From contig NZ_CP128399.1 in the NCBI RefSeq assembly GCF_030389965.1, positions 1,850,934-1,914,933 of the forward strand: a stretch of DNA of 64,000 nt, read 5' to 3'. Shown piece after piece: positions 1,553-31,198 of this stretch. The notes below the pieces were generated by a model that searched no databases, was not told the DNA's origin, and saw only the letters and a list, made by a program, of their open reading frames with translations. Position numbers and translations under genes: made by a program. Each line of letters starts with the position of its first letter. Position 1 is the stretch's first letter. Origin of the DNA: Candidatus Chlorohelix allophototropha. Lineage in GTDB: Bacteria > Chloroflexota > Chloroflexia > Chloroheliales > Chloroheliaceae.

Positions 1553-1692
1553 GTGATTTAGTGCTGGCTGAAAAGTGGCACATCCCGCCTTGGCAGGTAG
1601 CAGACCGAAAGCCCGTCGCTACTTGGAAGGTGGTCTATAGGCTTTTGGAAATGTTTCTCGCGCAAGTGCAAAGCGAAGTAGGTTATGGCTAG
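998..1692 (+). CDS. Tail assembly chaperone GT fusion made by -1 frameshift
   Basis: A slippery heptamer A AAA AAC occupies 1390-1396 and is in the correct phase: zero-frame codons are GAA AAA AAC. A -1 slip moves ribosomes into a frame open from 1336 to the TAG at 1690-1692, giving about 231 residues. The extension looks more protein-like than the zero-frame tail, including LVLAEKWHIPPWQVADRKP and an amphipathic end. It overlaps the tape-measure start (1685) by 8 nt. This matches the G/GT arrangement of lambda, in which the minor GT product carries the T domain that contacts the tail tube. The slip itself is inferred from sequence; its efficiency and any downstream stimulatory RNA structure were not determined. 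Confidence 0.85.
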
Positions 1693-4600
1693 TTCGACAA
1701 GTATCTTTTCATTACAGGTTAAGAGTGAAGGACTAGAGAACCTAAACATTCTAGCCGAGACACTTGAGGGCTTAAAATCCAAAGCGCAAGGGTTTGAGGC
1801 TGCTACCAAGAATATGAGTAGCAGCCTATCCATCACCAAGAGTATCACCACTGAAACCGCGACCAGCTTACAACAGCTTGGACAACACGCAAGCACCGCA
1901 ACAACCGGGATTGGAAACCTTCACGGCTTCACCTTGAATTTACACGCGCCATTAGAACACCTTGCCTTTTTAGCGCGAGAAGCGGGAACGGCTTTATTAG
2001 AGCTTGGCAAACAAGGTGCGGAAGGGTTGATACATGTCGGAACCGAAGTAGTCTCCTTAGCGGGTGATTACGAAGCCAATATGAACCGCTTGAAGTTCAT
2101 CACGGGCGCAACCGCAGACCAGATGACGCTACTAAGCTCAAAAGCGGTAGAGATAGGTAAGACCACTACCTTTAGCAGTAAATCAGCCGCAGAGGGTATG
2201 GCTGAACTGGCGCAACGGGGCTATAACGTGCAACAGGTTTATGACCTGATTACACCCGCCGCGAAAGCGGCAATGACCAATAACGTAAGTCTAGCCCAAG
2301 CAGCCGAAGGCTTGACCACCGTATTGCACTCAATGGGCTTACAAAGCACCGATGCCACTCACGCATTGGATGTAATGAGTCGAGCTAGTCAAATGGGCGC
2401 ATTGAACTTTGCGGATTTCCAAAAAGCAATGGCGAACGTGGGAACGGTAGCCCATAGCGCCCACCAGAGTTTTGAGGAGACCACCGCTGCCCTTGAGGGT
2501 ATGGTCAACACTGGTATGTCGGCTGACCGCGCCTCGCAAGCCCTTCGCTTCACCTTAGTCTCACTTGAGAAACCTAACAAGCAAGCCGCCGAAATGTTCA
2601 AAGAGTTGGGTATCAACATTTATGACGCAAGCGGCAATATGCTTCCCTTCTCCACCCTTGTAGATGAAGTCCAGAAGAAAACCGCAGGGATGACCGAAGC
2701 CCAACGCAACTTCTCGATGGCAACGATGTTTGGGAAGAACGGGCTACTGGCAATGAATGCAGCGATGCAAGCCAGTGTGCAAGTTACCGATGCCACCGGA
2801 ACACACATCCTACACGGAGCAGACGCTCTTAAATACTGGACTACCCAACTAGAGAACAGCAATGGAACGGCTCAGAAGGCTACCGATACCATTATGTCCG
2901 GGTTCAATGCCAGCTTGAAGAATATGAAAGGTTCTTTGGAAGAAGCGGCAATAGCGGTAGGACAAACCTTGCTACCGGGATTAACCAGTCTGGTAAAGGG
3001 TGTGACGGAGGGTATCAATAAGTTCATTGACTTTGAGATGAAAACTCATCTAGTCGGGAACACCTTAAAAGCGGTAGGGGATTTGATAGGCGCGTTCGTC
3101 AAGCCTGTCATAGATGCGATTAGCAAAATGGTGGAGAGCATAGGGAACGGCGCAAGCTCTATGAACGGCTTTATGAGCGTGTTTGAGAGCTTAAAGCCAA
3201 TCTTTAGCGAAATAGGGCAAGCCATAGGCACTACCATCCAGAATATTGTCGGCTACATCCAAATCATAGTCGAGGCTATTCAGAGCAATATGCCAGCAAT
3301 CCAGAAGCTAGGCAATGCAATCGGGGATGTTTTCAAGCTAATCGGGCAAGCCGTTGGCGAGGTGGTTAAGTTTATCTCACAGAATATGGACACCTTCATA
3401 TCCATATTTACCAGTGTGGCGAACATTATCGGGCAAATAGTAACGGGAATTATTGCAGTGTTTGAAGCCTTAAAACCTGCTTTAAGCACTGTATTTGATT
3501 GGATAGCTTATGCACTAGGAAAAGTCAACGAGGCGATTGCAATCTTCGGGGTGGCGTGGGATAGAGCAGGTACTACCGTCAAGCAAATATCCTTCCTAAT
3601 CGAAATGGCATTTACACAGGTTCAGAATTGGATAATTGATGCCATAAACGGGATTATCAGAGGGATAAACACGCTCATTGATGGAATGAACATTGTCGGG
3701 GGAGCGGTAGGTATCCACATTGATAAAATCGGGGAACTTGAACACGCCGCTTTCAATGCCGAGGAGTCGCTTAACCGTCTAGGTTTGGCTGGTAATGATG
3801 CCGCAGGTGGTCTGGACAAGTCAAGCTCGGCAAGTTATGTGGCAGCGCGGGGCTATGATGCGGCTGGTAATTCTGCTAACAATGCCACCAATGCCATAAA
3901 GAATTTGACTTCTGCTCTAGGTAATTCATACACCTTCCCGCAAAATTCCAGTAGCTTACCGGGTAGCAGTGCAGACGAAAACCCGGAAGACGGTTCTGGT
4001 CCAATAACCAGCAGTTCCACGAAAGCCAGTGACCCCTTACAAACAGCGTTGGATTTAGCTTCCAAGCTGGCTGATGTAGGTAAGAAAATATCCGAACTAA
4101 ATTCCTTCTCAGGAGTTAGCGCGGAAGCCTTAGCCACCTTCAACGGCAATATGCAACAAGTGGTGCAGGACTTTGTAGCCTCAGCAATGTACTTCAATTC
4201 CCAAGCCTTAAAAGGTGCAGCCGATTACCTTGAGACCGCAAACAAGGTCGCTGACGTAATCGGGAAGATGGCAGACGGGCTAAATAAGCTACGGGATTAC
4301 CAATCCATTTCCTACGACCACATACAAGCCTTTATGGGTGACGCTCAAATAATGGTTGGGGCTTTTATGCAAGCGGGATTCCGCTTCTCGGTAGAAATGC
4401 TTCAAGCAGCCATCCTATTTTCAAGTGCCGTGTCGCAGGTAGGAGAGGCTATTGGAAAGATGGCAAATGGGTTATCCGGGATTGGCAAGTATAGCTCGGC
4501 TAGCCGAGAGTCAATGTATGGGTTTGTCGGCGATGCGAGGATTATTGTTGACCTGTTTGTAAGCGCGGGATATTCCTTCTATGGCGATATGCTCAAAAAC

Positions 4601-6583
4601 GCCACCTTATACAGCGATGCCGTAGGTAAAGTCGGAGATGCTATTGCGAAGATGGCAAACGGCTTGACCGCACTTAGCAAGTATAGCTCATCCAGCCAGA
4701 TAGCAATGTACCTGTTTGCTCAAGACGCGAAGATTATTACCGGGATATTTGCCAGCGCGGGCTATGAGTTTGCTACCGGGATGCTCACCAATGCCAACAA
4801 CTACAGCGACACGGTAGGCAAGGTCGGTGACTCTATCGGGAAGATGGCAAACGGACTAACCACCCTTAATAACTACAGTTCGTTATCGCTCCAACAGATT
4901 TACTTCTTCACTCAGGACGTGCGATTGGTCACGGCAGCATTTGTCAGTGTCGGCTATGAGTTCAATACCCAAATGCTTACCAGCGCCGATGGCATTGCGA
5001 CCACAACGAGCAAGGTAGCCGATGTTCTCGGAAAGATGGTCACAGGGCTAACAGCCGTTGGGGATTACGGGTCGGTATCCATACAGCAGATGAACTACTT
5101 CATCGAGGATATGCAGACAATCACCGAAGGGTTTGTCGTTGCCGGGAGCGAGTTCAATACCCAAATGCTTACCAGTGCTGATGGCTTTTCTTCTACGGCT
5201 TCAAAAGTGGCTGATGCTATATCTAAGGGAGTAACCGGGTTAAGCGCAATCGGTGGTTCTGGCTCATTGTCAGTACAGCAGATGAACTACTTTATTGAGG
5301 ACATACAGACAATCACCGAAGGGTTTGTCAATGCCGGGAATGGGTTCTCCACCAAAATGCTTGCCAGCGCGGACGGATTTTCTTCTACGGCAAGCAAGGT
5401 GGCTGATGCTACGGGCAAGGGCGCAACCGAACTGGTCAAGCTCAACGACTATATTCCCGTAAGCCAGCAAGCAATCCGGGATTTTGGCGCAGACCTTGTA
5501 TTGATAGTAGCTCAATTTGTGATTATGGCTAGCCAATTCAAGACCGATGGCTTAACAGCCGCAGGTATATTCAGTGACAACGCCAGCAAGGTAGTTGATG
5601 CAATCGGGAAGGGCGCAACCGGGTTCGCTGCCTTACAAGGGTATAGCGGCATACCAAAGGAAACGATGCAGAAGTTCATCGCCGACCTACAGATAGCAAT
5701 CCAACTGACGGTACAAATGACCGCAAATATGAACACGCAAATGTTTACGCAAGTGCAAGCATTTGGTGAGGCAGTGGACAAGCTATTCACGGGCTTCAAG
5801 AATGCGGTGGAGACCTTCACGCTATTGGGCGATGCGAAATATACGGGTGCGCCAGAGAAGGCAATCAGGAGCTTGATTGCGGGTATCAGCTTAACCGTAA
5901 CACTGGCTGGTCAAATGGCAGACCAGACCAGTAAGGATTTAATGGCAAAAACCAGCCAGTTTGGGGAGGCGATTAAGCAGATATTTGACGGGCTAAAGAG
6001 TGCGTTGGATACCTTTACAGGCTTGACCAATATGCCAGAAACACCCGCCGATAGGATTAAGACCTTACTCAGTGGCATACAAAGCGCGATTGAGCAGATG
6101 GCAGCGATGAACGAGAGAGCCAACAACCTACTAGGTTTGGCTTTGAGCTTTGATGACAAAATGCAGAGAGCGGCAACAGCCATCACAGCGGGTCAAAATG
6201 CCGTTGCTATGGCAGGTGTGCCGAGTGGTGCGCCGAGCGGTAGCAGTGGTGCGGCAAGTGGCAAGTTTACAGGTGGGGCTTGGATGGGTCGCGCTACGGG
6301 TGGCACTGCTTTTCCTTACTTTATGGCAGGGGAGAACGGAGCAGAACCTATCTTTTTAGGAGCGCAGAACGCTTATGTAATGAACAATTCGATGGCACAG
6401 AGCAGGGGATTAGTGGGTGGCAATGGTGGCAGCACATCCAACCATCAAACTATCAACATAACTTTGAACATAACCGAGAGCAAAAATGCCAGAGCTACCG
6501 GGAAGGAAGCGAAAGACCAAGTTTTGATGGCATTAGGACAGAGGTCGGCTTTACTGGCAAGTCAGGGAGGAATAGCTAACTAA
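1685..6583 (+). CDS. Phage tail tape measure protein
   Basis: This 1,632-residue protein sets tail length and fills the tail tube. Residues about 125-360 match the TP901-type tape-measure core (EANMNRLKFITGAT, MAELAQRGYNVQ, MGLQSTDATHALDVMSRAS, ADRASQALRFTLVSLEKP). Hydrophobic segments follow at roughly 440-620, then a Ser/Gly-rich linker near 750. Residues about 800-1450 consist of tandem 64-residue repeats. The C terminus (after ~1,500) is Gly-rich with a short basic end. ATG 1685 overlaps the GT stop, suggesting translational coupling. At about 1.5 Å per residue such a length corresponds to a tail of a few hundred nanometres by the usual rule, an estimate only. Confidence 0.95.
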   Translation: MASSTSIFSLQVKSEGLENLNILAETLEGLKSKAQGFEAATKNMSSSLSITKSITTETATSLQQLGQHASTATTGIGNLHGFTLNLHAPLEHLAFLAREAGTALLELGKQGAEGLIHVGTEVVSLAGDYEANMNRLKFITGATADQMTLLSSKAVEIGKTTTFSSKSAAEGMAELAQRGYNVQQVYDLITPAAKAAMTNNVSLAQAAEGLTTVLHSMGLQSTDATHALDVMSRASQMGALNFADFQKAMANVGTVAHSAHQSFEETTAALEGMVNTGMSADRASQALRFTLVSLEKPNKQAAEMFKELGINIYDASGNMLPFSTLVDEVQKKTAGMTEAQRNFSMATMFGKNGLLAMNAAMQASVQVTDATGTHILHGADALKYWTTQLENSNGTAQKATDTIMSGFNASLKNMKGSLEEAAIAVGQTLLPGLTSLVKGVTEGINKFIDFEMKTHLVGNTLKAVGDLIGAFVKPVIDAISKMVESIGNGASSMNGFMSVFESLKPIFSEIGQAIGTTIQNIVGYIQIIVEAIQSNMPAIQKLGNAIGDVFKLIGQAVGEVVKFISQNMDTFISIFTSVANIIGQIVTGIIAVFEALKPALSTVFDWIAYALGKVNEAIAIFGVAWDRAGTTVKQISFLIEMAFTQVQNWIIDAINGIIRGINTLIDGMNIVGGAVGIHIDKIGELEHAAFNAEESLNRLGLAGNDAAGGLDKSSSASYVAARGYDAAGNSANNATNAIKNLTSALGNSYTFPQNSSSLPGSSADENPEDGSGPITSSSTKASDPLQTALDLASKLADVGKKISELNSFSGVSAEALATFNGNMQQVVQDFVASAMYFNSQALKGAADYLETANKVADVIGKMADGLNKLRDYQSISYDHIQAFMGDAQIMVGAFMQAGFRFSVEMLQAAILFSSAVSQVGEAIGKMANGLSGIGKYSSASRESMYGFVGDARIIVDLFVSAGYSFYGDMLKNATLYSDAVGKVGDAIAKMANGLTALSKYSSSSQIAMYLFAQDAKIITGIFASAGYEFATGMLTNANNYSDTVGKVGDSIGKMANGLTTLNNYSSLSLQQIYFFTQDVRLVTAAFVSVGYEFNTQMLTSADGIATTTSKVADVLGKMVTGLTAVGDYGSVSIQQMNYFIEDMQTITEGFVVAGSEFNTQMLTSADGFSSTASKVADAISKGVTGLSAIGGSGSLSVQQMNYFIEDIQTITEGFVNAGNGFSTKMLASADGFSSTASKVADATGKGATELVKLNDYIPVSQQAIRDFGADLVLIVAQFVIMASQFKTDGLTAAGIFSDNASKVVDAIGKGATGFAALQGYSGIPKETMQKFIADLQIAIQLTVQMTANMNTQMFTQVQAFGEAVDKLFTGFKNAVETFTLLGDAKYTGAPEKAIRSLIAGISLTVTLAGQMADQTSKDLMAKTSQFGEAIKQIFDGLKSALDTFTGLTNMPETPADRIKTLLSGIQSAIEQMAAMNERANNLLGLALSFDDKMQRAATAITAGQNAVAMAGVPSGAPSGSSGAASGKFTGGAWMGRATGGTAFPYFMAGENGAEPIFLGAQNAYVMNNSMAQSRGLVGGNGGSTSNHQTINITLNITESKNARATGKEAKDQVLMALGQRSALLASQGGIAN
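4079..5800 (+). repeat. 192-nt in-frame tandem repeats inside the tape measure gene
   Basis: The marker GGNAAGATGGCAAACGG and its variants occur at 4262, 4454, 4646, 4838, 5030, 5222, 5414 and 5606, a spacing of exactly 192 nt (64 codons) in all seven intervals. A shorter, diverged unit precedes at about 4079, and weaker units continue to about 6000. Two neighbours (about 5090-5200 and 5280-5390) are nearly identical in DNA, pointing to recent duplication. Confidence 0.9.
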
Positions 6584-8763
6584 TGCTGGACTTAGAATTT
6601 TGGAGACCAGAACCGAGCTTTTTAGTACCGACAGGTGGTAGCACCTTGATACCGCTCAATGCGTCTTGGGGCGGCAATAACATAACCTTCTCAGTTTTGG
6701 ATGACCAGACTTTTGATTTAGGAAGTCAACCACCAGACTTATTGCAAGCGGGTGGGAGCGGTCGGTATGGACAAGATATTTATGCTTACACCCGGAAGGA
6801 CAGGCAAATACAGTTTACCTTATTCGCGCAAGCGGTAGCGGGTGGTGGTAACACGGCAGCGCAAAACTTGAAGCTCGGTGTATGGGCTTTACAAAGCACG
6901 TTGGTAGAAGCTACTCAATATAACGCTTCATCGGCAATCCACAATACGGGGCAAGTGCTAGGACAGCCGCTATTTTTGAAGTATCAACCTGACAATACTA
7001 ATGCAGTGTATTTTTGGGTAAAGAGCGGGGCAGTTGACCTAAGCCAGTTCGATAGCCAGATTAGATTGCTACAAAACACTGCTTATGTACCTATTACACT
7101 CATAACCAGTTATGCGGCTTATGGGGATGTATCTTGGCTATACAACCTTGTACCGAACGGGGCATTTTCTAACGGTACGGATAATACGGCTTTTAACTGG
7201 ACAGTGGTGGCAGGTAGTTCAACTGAATTTAACATAGTGCTTGCTACAGACCGTCAAAGCTATTATGCGAATGGCTCAACGGCTGGTGGGACGCTTTATA
7301 TGAGTGCTGAACAAGCGTGGGGCTATTCAACCGATAGTCCATTTAGCTTGCAATGGACAAGCCCAACATTGGCAGCAGGTTATACCAGCATTGTAAGCCA
7401 AACCGTTTTTCTTAATGCCTACTCTACAGGGGATTTGTATTGGCTATCGTTTGAGTATAAGGATAACCAGTTTAATTCTGGCTTTATGCGAGTATATCTT
7501 GAATACTCCAATAATGGAACTACCGGCTGGACTAGCACCGGGACAACCATATCATTAGGTAACTCCCCAAACTGGACTAAATTCAGTTGGAATAGTGCAG
7601 TCGTTCAATCAACTTTGACGCTTGGAAACGCTTATTTAAGAGTGAGGATTGAGGGTAATAAAAACATTGTCGCGGGTAGCACTGGACAGATTAGGAAGGT
7701 AGCTTTATGGCACTTTCCAGCCACATTGCCGAGCAGTTTTGTAAAACTTCCCGTTGAGTATGTGGCGCAATCCACCACACAGCGTAGTCCGGCAGTATTG
7801 GTAAACTTGCAAGGTAATTTAGAGACCAATGCAATGTTGTTCGTTGCTAATCCTGTAACCAATGTTGGCGATACGAACAGTTTTGCTCATTTAGGGGCAG
7901 TGTATCAACAGTTGACATTAGGGGCTAGGAAAGTGCAAGGCGCGTCTATCTCCTTATACTCAAATCCTAATGCTACTGTTACCATTGCTTCAAATGCTAC
8001 ATCAAGTCCAGCATTATCAACCCTATTAAATGGCTTCTTCGATTTTGAGCCACGTCAATATAGGGTGCTATTGCAGATTACCACCGATTCTACGTGTGGA
8101 ATACTATTTGGTTCTCTATCTTATAGTAGCTTTACAGGTCAAAATCTGACAACTATTGTACCTAATCCTTCATTGGTAGAGATACCGAACACAAGTAGCA
8201 CAAGTACCTTTGTGGATTGCGGGACGGTCACTATTCCACAGCAACGTCTTTCTATCAGTATTAACAGTACCAGTGCAAACTCTTACATAGCACCATATAT
8301 AAATTTCACTCGATTAGCTTCTTCATCCCCTCTAGCTACCGTGATAAATATCACCCTTACTTCAATTTATTTCATCCCGGCAGACCAACAGTTTTGGGCT
8401 GATATTAGATTTCAAGGTCTTACTATATCAGGTACTAACGGGGTGTCTGGTTGGGCGGCTAGTCCTACCTACCAAACCGGGCATAGGAACTTAGTAATCA
8501 ATTCACTATTTTTAGAGCATTCAAACCTATGGCTAGATAGCACAGATAACAAAGGCACAAACTCTACCATCTTAAATCCAGCCTATACCTTAAACCCTAT
8601 AAGGCTATATCCCTCGACTGTGACAAACCCTGCTCCAATGATGATAGGTGGCGCAATCAGGCAAGCGGATATTTCAGGGGCGCAGGGATTGCCTCAAAAC
8701 AGTTTGGTTGACAATAACCCGGTGTTATATGGGGTCGCTTATTGTCCAGCATATGAGTTTTAA
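6583..8763 (+). CDS. Distal tail / tail fibre-like structural protein
   Basis: Encodes 726 residues; ATG 6583 overlaps the tape-measure stop (TAATG), so translation is coupled. The first ~190 residues (LEFWRPEPSFLVPTGG, YAYTRKDRQIQFTLFAQ) resemble a distal-tail type domain that follows the tape measure in siphoviruses. Residues about 195-380 look like a beta-sandwich carbohydrate-binding module (LVPNGAFSNGTDNTAFNWT, then a jelly-roll-like pattern ending at IRKVALWHF). The remainder is Ser/Thr/Asn rich with many beta strands. No enzymatic motif was seen. A role in the tail tip and host-surface contact is inferred from gene order and the sugar-binding-like module. Confidence 0.65.
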   Translation: MLDLEFWRPEPSFLVPTGGSTLIPLNASWGGNNITFSVLDDQTFDLGSQPPDLLQAGGSGRYGQDIYAYTRKDRQIQFTLFAQAVAGGGNTAAQNLKLGVWALQSTLVEATQYNASSAIHNTGQVLGQPLFLKYQPDNTNAVYFWVKSGAVDLSQFDSQIRLLQNTAYVPITLITSYAAYGDVSWLYNLVPNGAFSNGTDNTAFNWTVVAGSSTEFNIVLATDRQSYYANGSTAGGTLYMSAEQAWGYSTDSPFSLQWTSPTLAAGYTSIVSQTVFLNAYSTGDLYWLSFEYKDNQFNSGFMRVYLEYSNNGTTGWTSTGTTISLGNSPNWTKFSWNSAVVQSTLTLGNAYLRVRIEGNKNIVAGSTGQIRKVALWHFPATLPSSFVKLPVEYVAQSTTQRSPAVLVNLQGNLETNAMLFVANPVTNVGDTNSFAHLGAVYQQLTLGARKVQGASISLYSNPNATVTIASNATSSPALSTLLNGFFDFEPRQYRVLLQITTDSTCGILFGSLSYSSFTGQNLTTIVPNPSLVEIPNTSSTSTFVDCGTVTIPQQRLSISINSTSANSYIAPYINFTRLASSSPLATVINITLTSIYFIPADQQFWADIRFQGLTISGTNGVSGWAASPTYQTGHRNLVINSLFLEHSNLWLDSTDNKGTNSTILNPAYTLNPIRLYPSTVTNPAPMMIGGAIRQADISGAQGLPQNSLVDNNPVLYGVAYCPAYEF

Positions 8764-11548: not shown

Positions 11549-12343
11549 ATGTTTACGATACTTCAAAAACCAGTACAAAATTACTGGACGGGTAGAGCGG
11601 GAATGCAAGCGGTAGCTATCGTTGACCATATTATGCAAGGCACGTTGGCTTCCACTGACGAGTGGTTCAACAACCCGACCTCTCAAGCCAGTAGCCATTT
11701 CGGAGTAGGCAAGGATGGCACAATCCATCAATACGTTGACCTTGCTAACTCAGCGTGGGGCAATGGGATTGTTGACCATCCCGATATGAGTATCGGTTGG
11801 TTATCGAATGCAATTGGGCGAGGTATCAACCTTAATCGTATGACGGTCTCGATAGAACACGAAGGCAATACGGGTGACGTAATGCCAGAGGCGCAATACC
11901 AAGCCAGCTTATACTTGCATCAATACATCAGCCAGCAATTAGGTATAATCTTAGACCGGGAGCATATAATCGGGCATTACCAGATTGATAGTGTGAACCG
12001 TCCGAACTGTCCGGGAACGGGTTTTCAATGGAGCAGATTGATGAGCGATTTACAGCAGACAGGCATACCGCAGAGTAACCCAGACGGTGAGTATTTTCAA
12101 GAGACTGGCTATTGGATAGTCAACGTTTTACCAGACGGGACTAGAATAGGCTTCCTAGACTTCTTCAAAAATAACGGGGGCATCAACGCTTTCGGGCTTC
12201 CAAAAACGGGAGCATATTTCGACCCGGCATTGGGGCGCGTGGTACAGCAGTTGGAAGCCAGTCGGCTTGAATATCACCCGGAGAACCCCGACCCTTACAA
12301 GGTGGAGAGGGGCTTGGTTAATGACGAGCTTCGGGGCGTTTAG
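11549..12343 (+). CDS. Endolysin, N-acetylmuramoyl-L-alanine amidase
   Basis: This 264-residue enzyme should cleave the amide bond between muramic acid and L-alanine in peptidoglycan at the end of the lytic cycle. Residues about 20-165 form an Amidase_2/PGRP-type domain with the zinc ligands H27 (IVDHIMQG), H143 (IIGHYQID) and C154 (NRPNCPGTG); E103-H104 lies in the SIEHEG strand. Residues about 190-250 (FLDFFKNNGGINAFGLPKTG) look like an LGFP-type wall-binding repeat. It has no signal peptide, consistent with export through the holin encoded just upstream. The gene is followed by a strong terminator that closes the late operon. Confidence 0.93.
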   Translation: MFTILQKPVQNYWTGRAGMQAVAIVDHIMQGTLASTDEWFNNPTSQASSHFGVGKDGTIHQYVDLANSAWGNGIVDHPDMSIGWLSNAIGRGINLNRMTVSIEHEGNTGDVMPEAQYQASLYLHQYISQQLGIILDREHIIGHYQIDSVNRPNCPGTGFQWSRLMSDLQQTGIPQSNPDGEYFQETGYWIVNVLPDGTRIGFLDFFKNNGGINAFGLPKTGAYFDPALGRVVQQLEASRLEYHPENPDPYKVERGLVNDELRGV

Positions 12344-13243: not shown

Positions 13244-13651
13244 GATGAAAAAAGAAGTAAGCACAAGGCTCTGGTTCTAATTCAAAACCACTTTCTCTTC
13301 TGCGGTAAAGGCTCATCAATTGTAGACTTTTTCTCTTTGATAGAACAGTACAGCAACACCCTGAATAGTTAAGATAGTACACACTCTGCAAATTCGTTAC
13401 ATTTTTAACAATATTTAAACGCTTTTTTACCTTTATTTACTGCTAAGCATCTTATAATATGTTTATAAGATAACGATGGTGACTGTGTTTCGTCTCTTTT
13501 ATTCTGTATAGTTTAAAGATAAGGAGAATAGAGGCATGGTAATGATGTGCGGTAAAGCCCAATTCTAGGTTCAATCAATAAAATTTTCTGACATAGAGAA
13601 ACTAGTTACAGCATTTTGCTATACTACGTACTACTTTAGTTTATACACCCT
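13244..13651. other. AT-rich stretch before the first signalling cassette; no long gene
   Basis: No reading frame above 60 codons has a ribosome binding site here. A TATAAT occurs at 13,453-13,458 without a good -35. A 10-codon frame with a strong Shine-Dalgarno site lies at 13,536. Otherwise nothing is recognised. Confidence 0.5.
13536..13568 (+). CDS. Possible 10-residue leader peptide
   Basis: ATG 13,536 follows a perfect AAGGAG (13,521-13,526) by 9 nt and encodes MVMMCGKAQF before TAG. It lies about 85 nt upstream of the structured leader RNA and could be a regulatory leader peptide of the receiver gene. The evidence is only the ribosome binding site. Confidence 0.25.
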   Translation: MVMMCGKAQF

Positions 13652-13798
13652 AGTTTATTAGACATATCTTATTTTCAGCCTACTGCATCGTTGCAGCAGG
13701 TTGGCTTTTACTGCCTATCTCAATGGCGCGATAGGTAAGTTTTTCGCCACATAAATAAAAACAAGGGGTGGTGCTAACCCATCACCCCTATATTTTCT
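13652..13798 (+). ncRNA. Structured leader RNA A with terminator, upstream of receiver gene
   Basis: This stretch is about three-quarters identical to 16,470-16,611. It can fold as hairpin 1 (CCTACTGC with GCAGCAGG), hairpin 2 (CCTATC with GATAGG, loop ending AATGGCGC), a downstream CGCC (13,745-13,748) able to pair with the loop GGCG as a pseudoknot, and a final hairpin GGGGTG/CACCCC (13,765-13,788) followed by a T-rich run. The last hairpin looks like a terminator in front of the gene at 13,833. Candidate cis-regulatory RNA; it does not match any riboswitch consensus that I can recall. Confidence 0.65.
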
Positions 13799-13832
13799 TG
13801 TACTCAATATTATCACATAGGGAATAGGTGAC

Positions 13833-14183
13833 ATGGTAGTTTTAGTTATAAATGAGACTGCTATTCTGCGAAAAGCCCTACGCAGATTCTTTGAACTACA
13901 GGGCTACACTATGATTGAAGCTGGGAACTTTGGTCAAGCTTATTCTATGGCAATCGAATACAAACCACAGTTTGTACTAGCTGATAACCTTATAGAAGCA
14001 ACATTGTGCCTCAATTTTTTCCAGCTTCTCCAGTCAATTCCCGGTATGGAAATGACTGAGTTTGTAGTATTTACTGACTATGATGATGAGTTTGAAACTG
14101 CCGCCAGTATCAATCTAAAAGCAACTATTACCAAGCCCAACATATTGCCTAAGATGAGAGAGCATTTCCCACCCTTACATTAG
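13833..14183 (+). CDS. Stand-alone receiver-domain protein A
   Basis: This 116-residue protein is essentially one CheY-like receiver domain. The putative phosphoacceptor Asp lies in FVLADNLIEA, the Thr in VFTDYDD and the Lys in ITKPN; the N-terminal acidic pair is replaced by NE (VLVINETAI), so metal binding may be weakened. It has no output domain. It is a paralogue of the protein at 16,655, and both have the same type of structured leader and the same 3' terminator. A hybrid histidine kinase lies convergently next to it, so phosphotransfer between them is plausible. Unusual cargo for a prophage. Confidence 0.8.
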   Translation: MVVLVINETAILRKALRRFFELQGYTMIEAGNFGQAYSMAIEYKPQFVLADNLIEATLCLNFFQLLQSIPGMEMTEFVVFTDYDDEFETAASINLKATITKPNILPKMREHFPPLH

Positions 14184-14225
14184 AATAAACACCTCCTAAC
14201 TTCCCCTCATTTTAAGCAGTACAAC

Positions 14226-14264
14226 AAAGAGCCGAGCATAACCACCCGGCTCTTTCATCTTTTA
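14226..14264. terminator. Terminator after receiver gene A, conserved in the second cassette
   Basis: AAAGAGCCG (14,226-14,234) pairs with CGGCTCTTT (14,247-14,255), followed by CATCTTTT. The motif before it (AAGCAGTACAACAAAG) is repeated after receiver gene B. It probably serves the convergent kinase gene as well. Confidence 0.85.
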
Positions 14265-14289
14265 TAGGGTTGCACTATAAAGAAATATA

Positions 14290-15942
14290 TTATGCCAGCA
14301 TTGCGTCCAACTTCTCGCGCAGTTCCAAAAACTTGAAAGGCTTACTCAGCGCACCCTTAAACCCATATGCCTCAAAATTGCTCAAAATCGGGTCATTGGA
14401 ATAACCGCTCGTAACTATTGCTTTTACTTGAGGGTCTATCGCTAATAAGTGTTGGATGGTTTCCTTGCCGCCCATCCCACCCGGTATGGTTAAATCCAAT
14501 ATCACCGCTTGGAAAGGATTAGCGCTCTCCAACGCTTCCCGGTAGAGTTCAATTCCCATTGCGCCATCAAGAGCGGTTACAACCTCATACCCCACAAGAC
14601 CAAGCACTCGTTTCAATAATACGAGAATATCATTTTGGTCATCTACAATCAGAACTTTGCCTCCATACATCGAAACCAGCTTTTCCCCAGAATCTTTCTC
14701 AAAAGGTGCAACCACTTCTCCAGAAAGGGCTGGCAAATACAGGAAGAAAGTAGCGCCTTTGCCAAGTTTTGAAGTCACCCCCAGAAAACCCTTGTGCTTA
14801 CTGATAATCGAAAAGGAGGTCGCCAGTCCCAAACCGCTTCCGCTGGACTTGGTAGTAAAGTATGGTTCGAATATTTTAGTTAAGGCTTCCTGACTGATAC
14901 CGATACCATCGTCTTGGATGGAGACCTTCACGTAATCAACCGTTTTTAATAGCATTGGCTCATCCTGCCTAACGACACTGTTCGCCAGCACATTCTCAGC
15001 GGTAATCGTAATAATGCCACCTTCCGGCATTGCTTGGTCGGCATTGATAATCAGGTTATTTATTACTTGGCTTATCTGATTGGTATCAATATTCACTACC
15101 CATAAATCCTCCGGTAAGGCAAAGACACAGCGTACATTCGACCCGTGCAAGGCAAAAATAGCTGTTTCTCGCACCAACTCCTGTAGCGACGAAATTTTTT
15201 TGATGGGTGCGCCCCCTTTGGAAAAGGTTAGCAACTGGTGGGTTAATTCCTTAGCTCGGAAAGTTTGGCTTTCGGCTTCTGCCAGCAAGTCCTCTACTTT
15301 AAGCGATTTCTGGTCTTTGGTTGCCAGCTTAGCCAACCAGATATTCCCAGCTATCGAGGTCAAAACATTGTTAAAATCGTGGGCAATACCGCCAGCCAGT
15401 ATTCCCACACTTTCCAACTTTTCGGCGCGGGCTACTTCTAATTCCAGTTTACGTTCGTGGGTAACATCTCGAAAGACCAGCACTACCCCCAATATTTGAC
15501 CAGTAATCGTATCAATAATCGGCGCGGCGCTATCAGCGATGACCCGTGAATTACCTTCTTGACTAATCAAAAGGGTGCTATTAGCCAAGCCCCTGATAAG
15601 TCCGGTATCCAACACCTTTTGAACCGGGTTCTCCACCTCTTTGCCGGTTTTCTCACTGATAATATGGAATACTTCTCGTAGGGGCTTGTTTTGTGCCTCG
15701 GCAATGTTCCAGCCTGTAAGGGTTTCGGCAACCGGATTCATCATCACTACTAACCCTTGCGTATCGGTGGTAATCACCCCGTCACCGATGCTACGTAAAG
15801 TTATAGCCAGCATTTCTTTTTCTTTGAGCAACAACTTTACGTAGGTTTTGCGTATCTCCGCTTCATTTTCCAGTGCGGTAATGCGCTGCTGCAACCGTTC
15901 TAGTTCCTTATGAAGTTGCTGGTTAGAAATATCGTAATCCAT
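14290..15942 (-). CDS. Hybrid sensor histidine kinase (PAS-HisKA-HATPase-REC)
   Basis: Encodes 550 residues from ATG at 15,942, preceded by AAGGTGG; an in-frame GTG at 15,972 has no ribosome binding site. Order of domains: N-terminal coiled coil (about 5-45), PAS (about 50-165, MLAITLRSIGDGVITTDTQG), HisKA with phosphoacceptor H188 (GGIAHDFNNVL), HATPase with N box NLIINADQAMPEGG, G1 DDGIGIS, F box EPYFTTK and G2 GSGLGLA, then a complete receiver (VLIVDDQND, LDLTIPGGMGG, VTSGYS, LSKPF). No transmembrane segment, so it is a cytoplasmic sensor. All catalytic residues are present. It is flanked by two receiver-only genes that face it or point away from it, forming a small phosphorelay-like island inside the prophage. 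Confidence 0.95.
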   Translation of the reverse strand: MDYDISNQQLHKELERLQQRITALENEAEIRKTYVKLLLKEKEMLAITLRSIGDGVITTDTQGLVVMMNPVAETLTGWNIAEAQNKPLREVFHIISEKTGKEVENPVQKVLDTGLIRGLANSTLLISQEGNSRVIADSAAPIIDTITGQILGVVLVFRDVTHERKLELEVARAEKLESVGILAGGIAHDFNNVLTSIAGNIWLAKLATKDQKSLKVEDLLAEAESQTFRAKELTHQLLTFSKGGAPIKKISSLQELVRETAIFALHGSNVRCVFALPEDLWVVNIDTNQISQVINNLIINADQAMPEGGIITITAENVLANSVVRQDEPMLLKTVDYVKVSIQDDGIGISQEALTKIFEPYFTTKSSGSGLGLATSFSIISKHKGFLGVTSKLGKGATFFLYLPALSGEVVAPFEKDSGEKLVSMYGGKVLIVDDQNDILVLLKRVLGLVGYEVVTALDGAMGIELYREALESANPFQAVILDLTIPGGMGGKETIQHLLAIDPQVKAIVTSGYSNDPILSNFEAYGFKGALSKPFKFLELREKLDAMLA

Positions 15943-16469
15943 ATAGATGCCACCTTTTTCCTGCTTTTGCACACAATATCAAGGGTTTATAAATATAGGT
16001 GGAGCAACTCACTTGCTACTAAAAAATGGATTGAGAATAAGTGCAGGAGTTAGAATGGAGTGTAAATTGAAAGCTATAAATGTAAGCCAGTTAACCAACT
16101 CTTATTTGTACATTTAAATTATAGCACGTTTATAGCTTTTAGTACGCCTCGTCCACTTCTTCATTTGGGAAGTATTTATTAAAGTGTATGTATGCAAAGT
16201 ATAACTGGAAAAATAGATATACTATATCCCTTTCTATTTAATTAAATTTATGGTATGATAAACTATCAATAAAACTTTTGTGAGAAAATCCTTGAACGTT
16301 GTTTGCCTAACTATTTCTCCTAACAGTAGGAGTGTAGATGCTTGTATGAGTTAATGAGCAGAATTAGGCTCAGTTAGCGCAGTAATTCTAGCTTAGGCAA
16401 AGAATCTTAGCAGCATATTTTTAGAATACATCCCTCCCCCACCTTTATTTTTAGCACCACAAATAATTA
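15943..16469. other. AT-rich intergenic stretch between kinase and second receiver cassette
   Basis: No reading frame with a ribosome binding site was found. It must contain the minus-strand promoter of the kinase and the plus-strand promoter of leader B; TATGAT at 16,254 is a weak -10 candidate. No repeat or RNA gene recognised. Confidence 0.5.
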
Positions 16470-16611
16470 GACAAATCTTAAATTTAGCCTACTTCTTGGG
16501 GAAGCAGGTTGAATTATTTAGCTTATCGCAACGGCGCGATAGGTATGTTTATAGCCACACAAATTAAACAAAGGGGTGGCTCTAACTAGCTCCCCCCTTT
16601 TTTGCACTGGG
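16470..16611 (+). ncRNA. Structured leader RNA B with terminator, upstream of receiver gene
   Basis: Homologue of leader A. Hairpin 1 is CCTACTTC/GAAGCAGG, where a G-C pair of leader A is replaced by T-A, a compensatory change that supports a base-paired RNA. Hairpin 2 is TATCGC/GCGATA with loop AACGGC; the downstream GCCACA can pair with the GGC of the loop. A last hairpin (AAAGGGG with CCCCCTTTTTT, 16,570-16,602) is a good intrinsic terminator located about 50 nt before the receiver start. The conserved unpaired stretches GGCGCGATAGGTA and GCCACA would be candidate ligand- or protein-contact regions. Confidence 0.7.
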
Positions 16612-16654
16612 TTTTAATTAGATTTAATCAGGTTGGGGTGGAGGACTATTGGCG

Positions 16655-17023
16655 ATGATGGTTCTAATTGTTAACAATGACCATGACTTCAGAAATATCG
16701 TCCGAATAATCCTGAAACCGTATAATTACGATGTAGTGGAAGCAGTCAGCTACAATGATGGGTTCTGGAGAGCGGTGGAGTTCAAGCCCCAGATTGTGTT
16801 AGTGGATAATATTATTACCTCTAAGTCCGGCATTGATTTGTGTAAGGATATTCAGTTAATTCCCGGTATGGAAGCTACGGAATTTTTAGTTTTTACTGAC
16901 TTTGATAATGAGTTAGAAAAGGTTGTGGATAGCAGAATAATTGGTGTGATTAAAAAGCCCTACATACTTTTTGAGATGAGAAAAATATTGCCCTTCCCCT
17001 CTATTCAACAGCAGGCTGGTTAG
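16655..17023 (+). CDS. Stand-alone receiver-domain protein B
   Basis: Encodes 122 residues. ATG 16,655 is preferred because GGAGG (16,640-16,644) lies 10 nt upstream; TTG 16,649 is possible but is only 4 nt away. The protein is a CheY-like receiver with the phosphoacceptor Asp in IVLVDNIITSKSG, Thr in LVFTDFDN and Lys in VIKKPY. The acidic pocket reads NND, so it is less degenerate than paralogue A. No DNA-binding or enzymatic output domain follows. Similarity to A covers the whole length, including PGME[AM]TEF, with the flanking leader and terminator conserved too. Confidence 0.82.
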   Translation: MMVLIVNNDHDFRNIVRIILKPYNYDVVEAVSYNDGFWRAVEFKPQIVLVDNIITSKSGIDLCKDIQLIPGMEATEFLVFTDFDNELEKVVDSRIIGVIKKPYILFEMRKILPFPSIQQQAG

Positions 17024-17086
17024 GCTTGTATTTAGAATATTGACCCCTTTACTAAGCAAGTTCCCCTTTCCCTAAGCAGTACAAAC

Positions 17087-17126
17087 AAAGAGCCGGGTGT
17101 GTAGCTCATCCGGCTTTTTCATCTTT
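17087..17126 (+). terminator. Terminator after receiver gene B
   Basis: AAAGAGCCGG (17,087-17,096) pairs with CCGGCTTTTT (17,110-17,119), with two G-T wobbles. The preceding AAGCAGTACAAACAAAG matches the sequence before the terminator of cassette A. Confidence 0.8.
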
Positions 17127-17225
17127 ACAAAAAATCCCGACCCAACCACGTTAGGACATACTGGTGGCAAAAGACGAGGGGCAGGAAGAAAGATAACGAA
17201 AAGAGCCGGGCTAACATCCTCGCCA

Positions 17226-24447: not shown

Positions 24448-27225
24448 ATGCCAATTATTAGCTGGAACGATATTCGCAGTAACGCTGTTGAGTTTTCTCA
24501 GGAATACAAAGACGCTACCCGTGAGAATGCAGAAACCCAATCCTTCTATAACGACTTTTTCAAAGTTTTTGGTGTCACTCGCCGCCGTGTGGCTTCGTAT
24601 GAAGCACCCGTAAAAAAGCTCGGTGCGAAACACGGACGTATAGACCTTTTCTGGAAGAGGACGCTCCTAGTGGAGCAAAAATCTGCTGGCAAAGACCTAG
24701 AAGTTGCCTACACTCAAGCCCTTGATTATTTCCCTAACTTGACAGAGGAAGAATTACCTCGCTACATCCTAGTTTGTGACTTCCAGAATTTCGAGTTGTA
24801 TGACCTTGACACCGATACCGTACATAAGTTCAAGCTGGAAGAATTGCACACTAAGGTTGAGTTGTTCGGGTTTATCGCAGGATACCAGAAGCGGGAATTC
24901 AAAGACCAAGACCCGGTAAATATCAAAGCTTCTGAGCTTATGGGAAAACTCCACGACATGCTCAAAGCTACGGGCTATAGTGGTCATGACCTAGAACAAT
25001 ATTTGGTGCGCCTGTTATTCTGCTTGTTTGCAGACGATACCGGGATTTTCGACAAGGACACCCTAAGTTTCTATATCGAAGAACAGACCCGTGAGGATGG
25101 CAGCGATTTAGGAATGCATCTCAATTCACTTTTTGCCACCTTGAACAAACCCTATGAAACCCGTCAAACAAACCTGAGTGAAGCTCTAAAAGCATTTCCA
25201 TATATTAACGGCAATCTGTTTGCCGAGCGTCTTGAGCCACCGGCATTTGACCGCGCTATGCGTGAAACCCTGATAACCGCTTGTTATTTCGATTGGGGAA
25301 GCATCTCACCCGCGATTTTCGGCTCACTCTTTCAATCAGTAATGGATAAAGACAAGCGGCGAGGTATGGGAGCGCACTATACCACCGAAAAAAACATCAT
25401 GAAGATTTTGAAGCCGCTCTTTCTAGATGCGCTTTATGCCGAGTTCGAGAGTGTGCGCTATGAGAGCAAGAAGCTTCAAAACTTCCATAAAAAGCTGGAA
25501 ACTCTTACCTTCCTTGACCCCGCTTGTGGCTGTGGTAACTTCTTAATTCTGGCATATCGAGAATTGCGTTTGCTCGAAATCGAAGTGCTGAAAGCGTTAA
25601 ATCCTGATAATGACAAAGCTCTAGAAAAGCAGTTAAAGTTGGACGTTAGCCAATTTTCCTCACGTATCAATGTTGATGCATTCTATGGTATCGAGATTGA
25701 GGAATTCCCTGCTCGTATTGCAGAAGTCGCTATGTGGCTAATAGACCACCAAATGAACCTGCGTCTGTCGGAGGCATTTGGACAATATTATGCGCGTATT
25801 CCTTTGAAGAAATCCGCTCACATTCATAATGCTAATGCCCTGAAGTTGGATTGGAACACCGTCATATCAAAAGAGCAGCTATCCTACATTCTCGGCAACC
25901 CGCCCTTTGTAGGTAAACATCTTATGTCTTTAGAGCAAGGCAAAGAAATTGATATTCTTTTTCATGGTGTTAATGGCGCAGGAGTTTTGGATTATGTTAC
26001 GGCATGGTATCTAAAAGCGGCGCAATATATTCAGGATAGCCGTATTGTGTGCGGCTTCGTTTCAACCAATTCTATCAGTCAGGGTGAACAAACGGCTATT
26101 TTGTGGCAGGAGCTTTTCAATCGCTACCATATCAAAATTCACTTTGCTCATCGTACCTTTGCGTGGAGTAGTGAGGCAAAAGGTAAGGCAGCGGTATATT
26201 GCGTTATAGTGGGCTTTGCGGTGTATGACATTGATACCAAGTTACTTTATGATTATGATACCCCGAAATCAGAAGCCCACGAACTCAAAGTAAAGAATAT
26301 CAATCCCTACTTAATTGAGGGCGATGATTTTGTTATTGACAAACGTAGAAGCCCTATATGTAATATCCCGTCTATGTTATATGGCAATAAACCAGTAGAT
26401 GGCGGGAATTTAATTTTATCAGATGCGGAAAAAGAAGAGCTACTTAGTAAAGAACCCTTAGCCCTTAAGTGGATAAGACCTTTTATTACTGCTGAGGAAT
26501 TTATTAACGGTAAAACCCGGTGGTGTTTGTGGCTAGTTGGCATACAACCAAATGAATTACACCAATTGCCTGAAGTAATGAAAAGAGTTAAGTTAGTTAA
26601 AGAAACCCGGTCAAATAGTGTGGATGAAGGGGCTAGAAAATTAGCCAGTCGTCCAGCGGAATTCAGGGATACAAAAGTATTCAAAAAATATATGATATTC
26701 CCTCTCCATTCATCCGAAATAAGGCAATATATTCCTTTTGGTTATATTGATTTTGATTGTATCGTAGGCAATAGCTGTTCATTTATTCCTAATCCTGACT
26801 TATTCCAATTCGGCGTACTCACCTCGCAAATGCACATGGCTTGGATGCGAACGGTATGTGGAAGAATCAAAAGCGACTACCGCTATTCAAATACCATTGT
26901 TTACAACAACTTCCCTTTTCCGCAGAACCCAACCCCAGAGCAGGTAAAAGATATTGAGAAAAAGGCGCAAGCAGTATTGGATACTCGCGCCCTGTTTCCT
27001 ACTAGCACCCTTGCCGACCTGTATGACCCGCTCACAATGCCGCCAGCGTTGGTCAAAGCCCATCGGGTATTGGACAAAGCAGTAGATACTGCCTATCGCA
27101 AACCGCCATTCGACACAGAGCTTCAAAGGGTAGAGTATCTTTTCAATATGTATAAGACCATCACCGAGCCGTTACTCACCGCAATAGCTGAGTCTAACAA
27201 GAAGAAACGCCAGCCCAAAAATTAG
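24448..27225 (+). CDS. Single-chain MmeI-like (type IIL/IIG) restriction-modification enzyme
   Basis: This 925-residue protein combines nuclease, methyltransferase and target recognition in one chain. N terminus: PD-(D/E)xK-type nuclease with D66 (RIDLFW) and E76-Q-K78 (LLVEQKSAGKDL), as in MmeI. Then a helical spacer, SAM motif I D357PACGCGNF, and catalytic motif IV N484PPF (gamma-type N6-adenine methyltransferase). The target recognition part covers about 600-830, and the C-terminal helical bundle begins near 850 (PTPEQVKDIEKKAQAVLDTR). One-strand hemimethylation by the same chain protects the host in this family. It sits alone in the early region, with weak ribosome binding and a slightly different style from its small neighbours, so it is probably cargo that defends the lysogen. 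Confidence 0.93.
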   Translation: MPIISWNDIRSNAVEFSQEYKDATRENAETQSFYNDFFKVFGVTRRRVASYEAPVKKLGAKHGRIDLFWKRTLLVEQKSAGKDLEVAYTQALDYFPNLTEEELPRYILVCDFQNFELYDLDTDTVHKFKLEELHTKVELFGFIAGYQKREFKDQDPVNIKASELMGKLHDMLKATGYSGHDLEQYLVRLLFCLFADDTGIFDKDTLSFYIEEQTREDGSDLGMHLNSLFATLNKPYETRQTNLSEALKAFPYINGNLFAERLEPPAFDRAMRETLITACYFDWGSISPAIFGSLFQSVMDKDKRRGMGAHYTTEKNIMKILKPLFLDALYAEFESVRYESKKLQNFHKKLETLTFLDPACGCGNFLILAYRELRLLEIEVLKALNPDNDKALEKQLKLDVSQFSSRINVDAFYGIEIEEFPARIAEVAMWLIDHQMNLRLSEAFGQYYARIPLKKSAHIHNANALKLDWNTVISKEQLSYILGNPPFVGKHLMSLEQGKEIDILFHGVNGAGVLDYVTAWYLKAAQYIQDSRIVCGFVSTNSISQGEQTAILWQELFNRYHIKIHFAHRTFAWSSEAKGKAAVYCVIVGFAVYDIDTKLLYDYDTPKSEAHELKVKNINPYLIEGDDFVIDKRRSPICNIPSMLYGNKPVDGGNLILSDAEKEELLSKEPLALKWIRPFITAEEFINGKTRWCLWLVGIQPNELHQLPEVMKRVKLVKETRSNSVDEGARKLASRPAEFRDTKVFKKYMIFPLHSSEIRQYIPFGYIDFDCIVGNSCSFIPNPDLFQFGVLTSQMHMAWMRTVCGRIKSDYRYSNTIVYNNFPFPQNPTPEQVKDIEKKAQAVLDTRALFPTSTLADLYDPLTMPPALVKAHRVLDKAVDTAYRKPPFDTELQRVEYLFNMYKTITEPLLTAIAESNKKKRQPKN

Positions 27226-29469: not shown

Positions 29470-29512
29470 AAGAAGCACTGGTAAATGTCGGGTTTGCCAG
29501 TGCTTCTTTTTT
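29470..29512. terminator. Bidirectional terminator between early genes and integrase
   Basis: AGAAGCACTGG (29,471-29,481) pairs with CCAGTGCTTCT (29,497-29,507), followed by TTTTTT on the plus strand. It separates the convergent integrase gene. Confidence 0.9.
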
Positions 29513-30596
29513 ATCGCCGATGCTTTACAGGTCTGCCTTTCTTGGCAATCGAGACCACACCCTTGTCATTGAGCCTTCTCAACGGAGAATTTGCGGCTTG
29601 CACACCCGACAGGTAATTGTCGTTGCGATGGATATACATTTCGGTGGTCGTGATACTGCTATGCCCCATCAATTCTTTCAAATCAATCAGTGAGACCTTC
29701 TGTTGTGCCATTGTGGTAGCAAAAGTGTGTCGGAGTTTATGGGCGTGAAAATCCACACCCGTAGCGGCTTCCAAACGCCTTATAAGGCTACCGAACCCGG
29801 CATAGCCAAGCGGTAACATCTCGTCAGTAACCCATAGCGCGTAATTATCTGGTAGGTCGGATAAGACCTTCTCTGCTAAGTATTGCGTCAAGGCGACCCG
29901 ACACAAATCGCTGAAGCTCACTACTCGCCTATCGGTTTTACCTTCCACTATTGCCCGGTTATGGTCAAGGTCTAAATCTCCTCTCTTGATGGAGAGCAAT
30001 TCCCCTCGCCTAATCCCGGTATCAACCAACATTGAGATGATGGCAAGGTCTCTGCGTCCGGTGAAGGTATCCAACCGCTCTGGTTTGGTTAGCTCATTGA
30101 ACAACTTCTCTAGCTCTAGCTCTGATACAGTTTTGATAACCTTGTTTTGCTTGCGTGTGGAGAAGCTTGCGGCTCTATTGAAGGGCGTATGCTCCACATA
30201 GCCACGCTGCTCCAACCAATTGAAGAAGGTCTTCACAGTGCGTCCATACGAGGCAATAGAAGCAGGTGACAAATCCTTGCCGCATTTGTTATTGGTGGGC
30301 TTGACGATGCCCCATCGGTCTGGATGATGTTCTCGGAGATATACCACAAATTCGGTGGCTTGCGCGGTGGTAACACATTTCGGGTGCGCCCCTATGTCGT
30401 GGTAATAGTTGGTGCAATCCTTCCACCACCAGAAAAACTTGTTTACCTTGTCTCGGTAGTCCAAAATAGTTTTATCGGACAATCCTGTGGCTCGGCAAAA
30501 ATCTATCCATTGATTGATTAAACTGTTAAATGGACAGGCAGAATTGCCTCTTTTGGGGGAGGGGAGTTTTGTCGTATCAGTGGGTTTCTGTTTCAT
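29511..30596 (-). CDS. int: Tyrosine recombinase / prophage integrase
   Basis: This 361-residue XerC/D-like protein starts at ATG 30,596 with AGAGGGA upstream. An N-terminal SAM-like core-binding domain (about 25-150, LINQWIDFCRATGLSDKTIL) is followed by the catalytic domain with the first Arg in DTGIRRGELLSI, HxxR in HAHKLRHTF, the His in LMGHSS and the Tyr nucleophile in TTTEMYIH. It should catalyse integration and excision between the phage and host attachment sites. It is at the element end and reads away from the adjacent tRNA-Lys, the standard order for tRNA-targeting integrases. Confidence 0.95.
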   Translation of the reverse strand: MKQKPTDTTKLPSPKRGNSACPFNSLINQWIDFCRATGLSDKTILDYRDKVNKFFWWWKDCTNYYHDIGAHPKCVTTAQATEFVVYLREHHPDRWGIVKPTNNKCGKDLSPASIASYGRTVKTFFNWLEQRGYVEHTPFNRAASFSTRKQNKVIKTVSELELEKLFNELTKPERLDTFTGRRDLAIISMLVDTGIRRGELLSIKRGDLDLDHNRAIVEGKTDRRVVSFSDLCRVALTQYLAEKVLSDLPDNYALWVTDEMLPLGYAGFGSLIRRLEAATGVDFHAHKLRHTFATTMAQQKVSLIDLKELMGHSSITTTEMYIHRNDNYLSGVQAANSPLRRLNDKGVVSIAKKGRPVKHRR

Positions 30597-30655
30597 ATAT
30601 TCCCTCTAAAATCAGTGGGAATAGGAAACGTTTATCGCATTGTAGTGGCTTGAGA

Positions 30656-30728
<73 letters not shown>

Positions 30729-31198
30729 AAGCGAGGTACATAGTAGCATATTCCGGCATAATCGTCAATACTAAAAAATGAGCTGTATGAATTCAGAGAT
30801 ACTATCAGAAGGTAAGCAAATTGAAGCGCTAAGCTCGATTTATATAATAGTTTTGAACAAAGAAAAGCTTAGACTACAGCAAAGTACTCAAAAGCTAATA
30901 GACTGATGGTAACGGGAGAACCGAGGTCTCGACTTACGGCTTCATAACTGGATAGCAATGGAGAAGACCGACTTGCAAAGACTGTTCCCCGACCATTAGC
31001 GCTAGTAGCGGCAATTAGGCTTGTTACAGCGCAGTTATGCGACTGGCTATCCGCGATAAGCTTACGCACGCGCTGAATGGTTGGGTGTCCCGTAAGTTCA
31101 ATAGTGTATTGTGTAGCAGCCCTTTTAGCTGGACTAAGGTGCAAAAAATGATTACTCCTCCATGTGAAGCCCCAAAGCAAGCCTCAATAGGTCGGCTG
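30729..31198. other. Noncoding or decayed stretch between tRNA-Lys and the IS element
   Basis: Open frames of 61-103 codons exist on both strands, but none has a ribosome binding site or a recognisable domain. It may be remnant DNA. Confidence 0.5.

Follow-up and report, generated by a model that had tools for sequence, protein, structure and literature searches.

The locus examined here raises the question of what kind of RNA precedes, and might control, two small genes for receiver-only proteins in the genome of Candidatus Chlorohelix allophototropha L227-S17, a phototroph of the Chloroflexota with a type I reaction centre (PMC10972752). The genome comprises 6.09 Mb, with contigs that include chromosome 1 (C1; 2,961,161 bases) and chromosome 2 (C2; 2,453,413 bases), and the window, i.e., the whole stretch of 64,000 nucleotides that was analysed, corresponds to positions 1850934-1914933 of chromosome 1. 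Its two leaders, designated W1 and W2, belong to a set of seven, the other five being located on chromosome 2 in three stretches designated L009 (C2a and C2b), L010 (C2c and C2d) and L011 (C2e). We regard these leaders, with a probability of roughly one half, as transcription attenuators of the receiver genes of the type that is bound by ANTAR regulators, whereby binding, termination and the direction of the switch are all predicted from sequence. This reading draws on two tandem hairpins, P1 and P2, whose hexaloops carry an A at position 1 and a G at position 4 (A1/G4), on the terminator hairpin that follows them, and on an ANTAR protein encoded in the same genome.

Seven structured leaders upstream of receiver genes

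The window contains the following components, with open reading frames (ORFs) given as their protein products:

13347..14262, + strand: cassette 1, i.e., upstream region, leader, receiver gene and 3' terminator, within the block colinear with L009
13673-13793, + strand: leader 1 (W1), matching the core model with 129.4 bits
13676..13703, + strand: P1 of leader 1, hexaloop AUCGUU (A1, G4), from RNAalifold and pair counts
13713..13736, + strand: P2 of leader 1, hexaloop AAUGGC (A1, G4), its closing pair resting on a U.C mismatch
13739..13750, + strand: GUUU..CGCCAC segment of leader 1, candidate 5' arm of an antiterminator, a putative function suggested by base complementarity and by a single pair that changes on both sides; the GCC could in addition pair with the GGC of the P2 loop
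13765..13788, + strand: terminator hairpin of leader 1, followed by a T-rich tail
13833..14183, + strand: receiver-only protein 1, 116 residues, PF00072 with 29.3 bits, just below the cut-off of 30.2
14226..14255, + strand: 3' terminator of cassette 1, hairpin of -12.3 kcal/mol, conserved in other copies
14290..15972, - strand: hybrid histidine kinase PAS-HisKA-HATPase-REC (Pfam), 560 residues
16159..17048, + strand: cassette 2, a leader-receiver block of the L011 type, 85.4% identical to L011
16482-16601, + strand: leader 2 (W2), matching the core model with 118.4 bits
16485..16511, + strand: P1 of leader 2, loop UUGGG (5 bases, without A1/G4)
16521..16544, + strand: P2 of leader 2, hexaloop AACGGC (A1, G4)
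16547..16558, + strand: GUUUAUAGCCAC segment of leader 2, candidate 5' arm of an antiterminator
16573..16597, + strand: terminator hairpin of leader 2, followed by TTTTTT
16655..17023, + strand: receiver-only protein 2, with ATG at 16655, PF00072 with 37.8 bits
17087..17119, + strand: 3' terminator of cassette 2, hairpin of -18.3 kcal/mol

An earlier note on this window, made from the letters alone, had described two leaders that are about three-quarters identical, each ending in an attenuator-like hairpin and preceding a receiver-only ORF, with a shared 3' terminator, and together flanking a hybrid kinase. This layout was confirmed, each receiver gene being followed by a terminator of its own, with 73% identity between the two leaders over the ungapped core and 37% between the encoded proteins. 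A promoter scan of the window returned no more sites than did shuffled sequences. The five copies on chromosome 2, which had been missed, were recovered by a DNA search, and a covariance model (R1) run against the whole genome returned the same seven leaders and otherwise only chance-level matches, apart from reverse-strand echoes of these sites. All seven are located directly upstream of a paralogous receiver-only ORF of 116-128 residues, and a terminator is present at the end of each of the seven cassettes. An eighth receiver paralogue (C1:2823645, in L048) has no leader.

The view that the leaders are more conserved than the coding regions is borne out by the divergent comparisons, i.e., those of W2 or C2e with the other five copies, in which the leader core is 64-75% identical, as against 37-42% for the proteins, 54-63% for the upstream DNA and 19-56% for four-fold degenerate sites (13-19 sites per pair). 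As leader identity lies well above that of the four-fold sites, the age of the duplications is by itself insufficient to explain it, and the leader must be either under selection or homogenised. For neither W1 (z of -4.4) nor W2 (z of -3.4) did any of 200 shuffled sequences reach the folding stability of the leader. Furthermore, RNAalifold applied to the seven copies returned P1, which has 10 pairs and one mismatch, P2, which has 9 pairs, and the terminator hairpin; at five pairs both bases have changed. The structure stands out against slid and shuffled controls, 94.9% of its cells being paired compared to at most 57.6% in the slid ones. For example, the G-C to T-A change noted earlier in the first hairpin is indeed compensatory, alignment pair 13/22 being GC in five copies and UA in two. 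As the copies are paralogous and few of the changes represent independent events, the covariation is moderate, not strong. The most conserved stretches are P2, the GUUU segment and the GCCACA segment. Together, the conservation and the compensatory changes across seven aligned copies uphold the description of a structured cis-regulatory RNA with attenuator architecture. By eye, a further small hairpin (P0) was observed approximately 105-115 bases upstream of P1, at 13556-13571 and 16356-16371 of the window, with stems AGCC/GGUU, AGCC/GGCU, AACC/GGUU and GAGC/GCUC across the copies, which suggests a longer structured leader.

An ANTAR-type loop signature and the ANTAR protein

The ANTAR antiterminator element is made up of tandem hairpins with A1/G4 hexaloops, a short linker and an intrinsic terminator downstream (PMC3369931; PMC8934654; PMC8164766), and its minimal site has been reduced to a single hexaloop (PMC8934654). 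The earlier note, which knew of no described riboswitch with this arrangement, is not supported on this point, tandem A1/G4 hexaloop hairpins with an intrinsic terminator being a described ANTAR target (PMC3369931; PMC8934654). In the leaders, P2 has the form C-AA(C/U)GGC-G in all seven copies, i.e., a hexaloop with A1 and G4 that reads AAUGGC in W1, C2b and C2e, and P1 has the form CUGC-A(U/C)CGU(U/C)-GCAG, again with A1 and G4, in five of the seven. The two hairpins are tandem with at least 3 base pairs each, and the linker between them is in keeping with an ANTAR target, measuring 8-10 nucleotides between full stems in the copies for which both stems were scored, and 14 nucleotides for C2a when only its inner stem is counted; published linkers measure 5-12 nucleotides in eut leaders (PMC3369931) and 2-25 nucleotides in actinobacterial ones (PMC8164766). 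The tandem hairpins, with A1/G4 hexaloops on both in five of the copies, the short linker, the downstream terminator and a genome that encodes an ANTAR response regulator are shared with the leaders targeted by EutV (eutP/G/S/A), NasR (nasF), AmiR (amiE) and NasT (nas), and the P2 loop AAYGGC closely resembles the AANGRR loop published for eut.

The rarity of the signature was assessed by a dual-hexaloop scan of 2.46 Mb, which covered the window together with almost the whole of chromosome 2, or about 40% of the genome, most of chromosome 1 having been searched by BLAST and covariance model only. Among 3204 stable dual hexaloops with any loop sequence, A1/G4 was found in both loops in 16, and the three most stable of these are the leaders C2c, C2d and C2a, leaving a background of 13/3201. 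For none of the other 13, approximately half of which lie within long ORFs, was a terminator detected. The scanned 40% of the genome yielded no further convincing leader of the ANTAR type. As a positive control, the same scan was applied with a looser energy limit to plasmid regions around ANTAR genes. In Paracoccus versutus it returned a leader with loops AAUGGC and AAUGAU in front of a nitrate transporter gene and beside the ANTAR gene, the former loop being identical to the P2 loop of W1, C2b and C2e; in Blastomonas it returned, in overlapping calls, a leader with loops AAUGAU and AAUGAC in front of a nitrate transporter gene; and in Sinorhizobium no such leader was found within 12 kb of the ANTAR gene.

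Consistent with the earlier note, the leaders match no known Rfam family, with none at gathering score and a best permissive E-value of 0.88 or worse. The Paracoccus and Blastomonas control regions returned tRNA only, without a hit on the nas leaders, and as two leaders with the ANTAR motif are thus missed, absence from Rfam is no sign of novelty and is uninformative about ANTAR membership.

Exactly one ANTAR protein is encoded in the genome (C2:1832654; 83.7 bits against a cut-off of 27.3):

6208-6840 of stretch L069, chromosome 2: REC-ANTAR regulator, 210 residues

This protein is similar over its full length to Rv1626 (1s8n) and EutV (6ww6), and in its RNA-contact loop both the Met and the D-x-R region after it are retained. 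Its gene is solitary, no kinase gene having been seen within several kilobases.

A possible switch and the competing explanations

By default, RNA polymerase would halt at the terminator of the leader, and the receiver would be made only in small amounts. An activated ANTAR regulator, most likely the sole one of this genome, would bind P1 and P2 at their A1/G4 hexaloops, upon which transcription would continue into the receiver gene and more receiver would be synthesized. A possible route from binding to terminator is offered by the segment (C/A)GCCAC after P2 (alignment columns 73-78), which is complementary to GUGG(C/U)(G/U) (columns 97-102), i.e., to the 5' arm of the terminator. This segment could pair either with the GGC of the P2 loop, so that the terminator can form, or with the terminator arm as an antiterminator. 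The GGC/GCC pairing would be prevented by a protein seated on the P2 loop, which would free GCCAC and favour the antiterminator. On paper, the candidate antiterminator pairing is mutually exclusive with both the GGC/GCC pseudoknot and the terminator, as would be expected of an antiterminator. At its outer pair, 73/102, four copies have CG and two have AU, column 102 also covarying with terminator column 109. The antiterminator could be lengthened further by pairing of GUUUA with UAAC; the terminator loop involved, CUAAC, is invariant in the leaders. A pairing of this loop with GGUUG of P1, noticed by eye, was dropped, as it is broken in C2a and C2b.

Several observations weigh against an ANTAR-type attenuator. 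The full clean dual motif is present in only three of the seven copies and is imperfect in four: the P1 loop of W2 and C2e has five bases and lacks A1/G4, and W1 and C2b have a mismatch under the P2 closing pair. The terminator begins approximately 28 nucleotides past P2 and has no base in common with it, whereas the two overlap in the eut, nas and ami leaders, although such overlap was found in only ~30% of the predicted targets of a published screen (PMC3369931). With P2 separate from the terminator and four motifs imperfect, any switch would differ from that of EutV. Further departures from the known ANTAR targets are the longer stems (9-10 pairs), the possible separate antiterminator helix, the control of stand-alone receivers and the existence of seven paralogous copies. 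The candidate antiterminator helix is broken in C2a, its two-sided change is probably a single event common to two related copies, and CUAAC, in many cases with CACC after it, is found unusually often as a terminator loop (in 11 of the 491 terminators predicted in the 2.46 Mb scanned), so that little weight can be placed on the extended helix. Finally, the ANTAR gene lies far from the leader-receiver cassettes, and as 33 of the 41 Chloroflexia genomes sampled, this one included, have such a gene, and thus most relatives without the leader do, the protein is older than the leaders.

If the ANTAR reading is correct, the cassettes would represent a candidate ANTAR regulon for the Chloroflexota, in a phototroph with a type I reaction centre, whose output would be response regulators and not metabolic genes; a search of the papers available returned none naming both 'ANTAR domain' and 'Chloroflexi'. 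Such a leader, with its recognition hairpins set apart from the terminator, would make the route from hexaloop binding to a distant terminator testable.

Possible, if rather unlikely, is an orphan attenuator or riboswitch that does not involve ANTAR, in which P1 and P2 would be compacted by a pseudoknot or a loop-loop kissing interaction and a small molecule or another protein would shift the balance between terminator and antiterminator. The conservation of P2, GUUU and GCCACA exceeds what ANTAR loops alone would require, and W2 and C2e, which lack the P1 hexaloop, have retained P2, GCCAC and the terminator. The pseudoknot proposed in the earlier note, between GGC of the loop and GCC downstream, stands as far as complementarity goes, being possible in all seven copies, but as its bases never vary, covariation is uninformative about it. 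The kissing interaction, between CCGUU of the P1 loop and AACGG of the P2 loop, would have five pairs in C2c and C2d and would include G-U in W1 and C2b, yet it is lost in W2 and C2e and has one pair broken in C2a. For a ligand-binding riboswitch there is no positive evidence: neither cross-species conservation nor a ligand-related gene context was seen, the leader having been found in this genome only, and no homologue was found in another gene context that might hint at a ligand.

The search for such homologues covered several collections. The R1 model returned nothing convincing in 400 Chloroflexota genomes or in 40 relatives, a model of P1 and P2 (R2) gave only weak, chance-like matches in 30 relatives, and exact leader patterns were absent from GTDB 220 and IMG/VR. 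Three of the weak matches are a 3' terminator after another gene (L081), a sequence overlapping the 3' end of a transporter coding sequence (L219) and a 3' terminator (L221), all chance-like, and in the remaining ones from relatives, where checked, loops or stems are broken. No leader homologue was thus found in the other genomes, viral contigs or phages searched, and of the covariation and conservation that the earlier note had looked to further homologues for, covariation was obtained among the seven paralogues, but no homologue from outside this genome.

We consider it unlikely that the leaders form a new RNA class, a possibility raised in the earlier note. Such a class would consist of a P1-P2 aptamer independent of ANTAR in which pseudoknot and antiterminator would compete to switch stand-alone receivers in exchangeable, partly phage-borne cassettes.

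Quite unlikely is an unregulated element, spread by duplication and recombination, that would be either a stable leader RNA of short length or a constitutive 5' untranslated region in which the terminator is partial. Shared ancestry and gene conversion would explain part of the likeness among duplicated, mosaic cassettes with 96% identical kinases in a single genome, and in the alignment several leader terminators are followed by weak U-tracts. The excess of leader identity over that of four-fold sites and upstream region, and the retention of stems by compensatory changes, count against this reading.

Ribosome-mediated attenuation through a leader peptide, from a TTG-started frame across P2 that yields similar peptides in several copies and in some ends at the TAA of the terminator loop, is highly improbable and was rejected on codon-position counts, as variable sites are spread evenly over the codon positions (6, 7 and 6 of 16) without a third-position excess, no start with a spaced ribosome-binding site is conserved, and the frame ends differ. 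A mutually exclusive terminator and antiterminator would also be reminiscent of BglG/SacY ribonucleic antiterminators, TRAP or leader-peptide attenuators; however, no RAT-like element, triplet repeats or conserved leader peptide was seen, the leader peptide being the only one of the three to which a formal test was applied.

Mosaic cassettes and their prophage setting

On chromosome 2, L009 represents a second receiver-kinase-receiver set, L010 a tandem pair and L011 a single copy, the kinases of the window and L009 being those that are 96% identical. Window positions 13347-16141 are colinear with L009 at 91.8% identity, and positions 17078-17215 match L009 again at 95.7%, so that the L011-type block is flanked on both sides by L009-like sequence. 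Given this L009/L011/L009 mosaic, the leader-receiver unit appears to move as a block, the second unit apparently having been exchanged between otherwise colinear cassettes. The breakpoints of the swapped block are located near 16141-16159 and 17048-17078.

Of the active-site residues of a CheY-like receiver, the receivers keep the phospho-acceptor Asp51 as well as Thr81 and Lys101, whereas the first residue of the acidic pair is replaced by Asn7 in all seven (A3 and PDB alignments). It is thus uncertain whether they are themselves phosphorylated, and a role as phosphate sinks or as binding partners would be possible. Protein searches of GTDB 220, IMG/VR and a phage collection returned no relative of these receivers.

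The W1/W2 pair is located in a prophage-like region of the window (1685-30729), which includes:

1685-6583: tail tape-measure-like protein
11549-12343: endolysin
24448-27225: MmeI restriction enzyme
29511-30596: tyrosine integrase, adjoining tRNA-Lys
30654-30729: tRNA-Lys, adjoining the tyrosine integrase

As self-contained units with their own terminators amid phage tail, lysis and integrase genes, the cassettes resemble prophage cargo genes (morons), but differ from them in that no relative of the receivers was found in the phage or viral collections and that the cassette is also present on chromosome 2, outside recognisable phage genes. Within the prophage-like region, the receiver-kinase cassettes are positioned between the lysis gene and the leftward genes.

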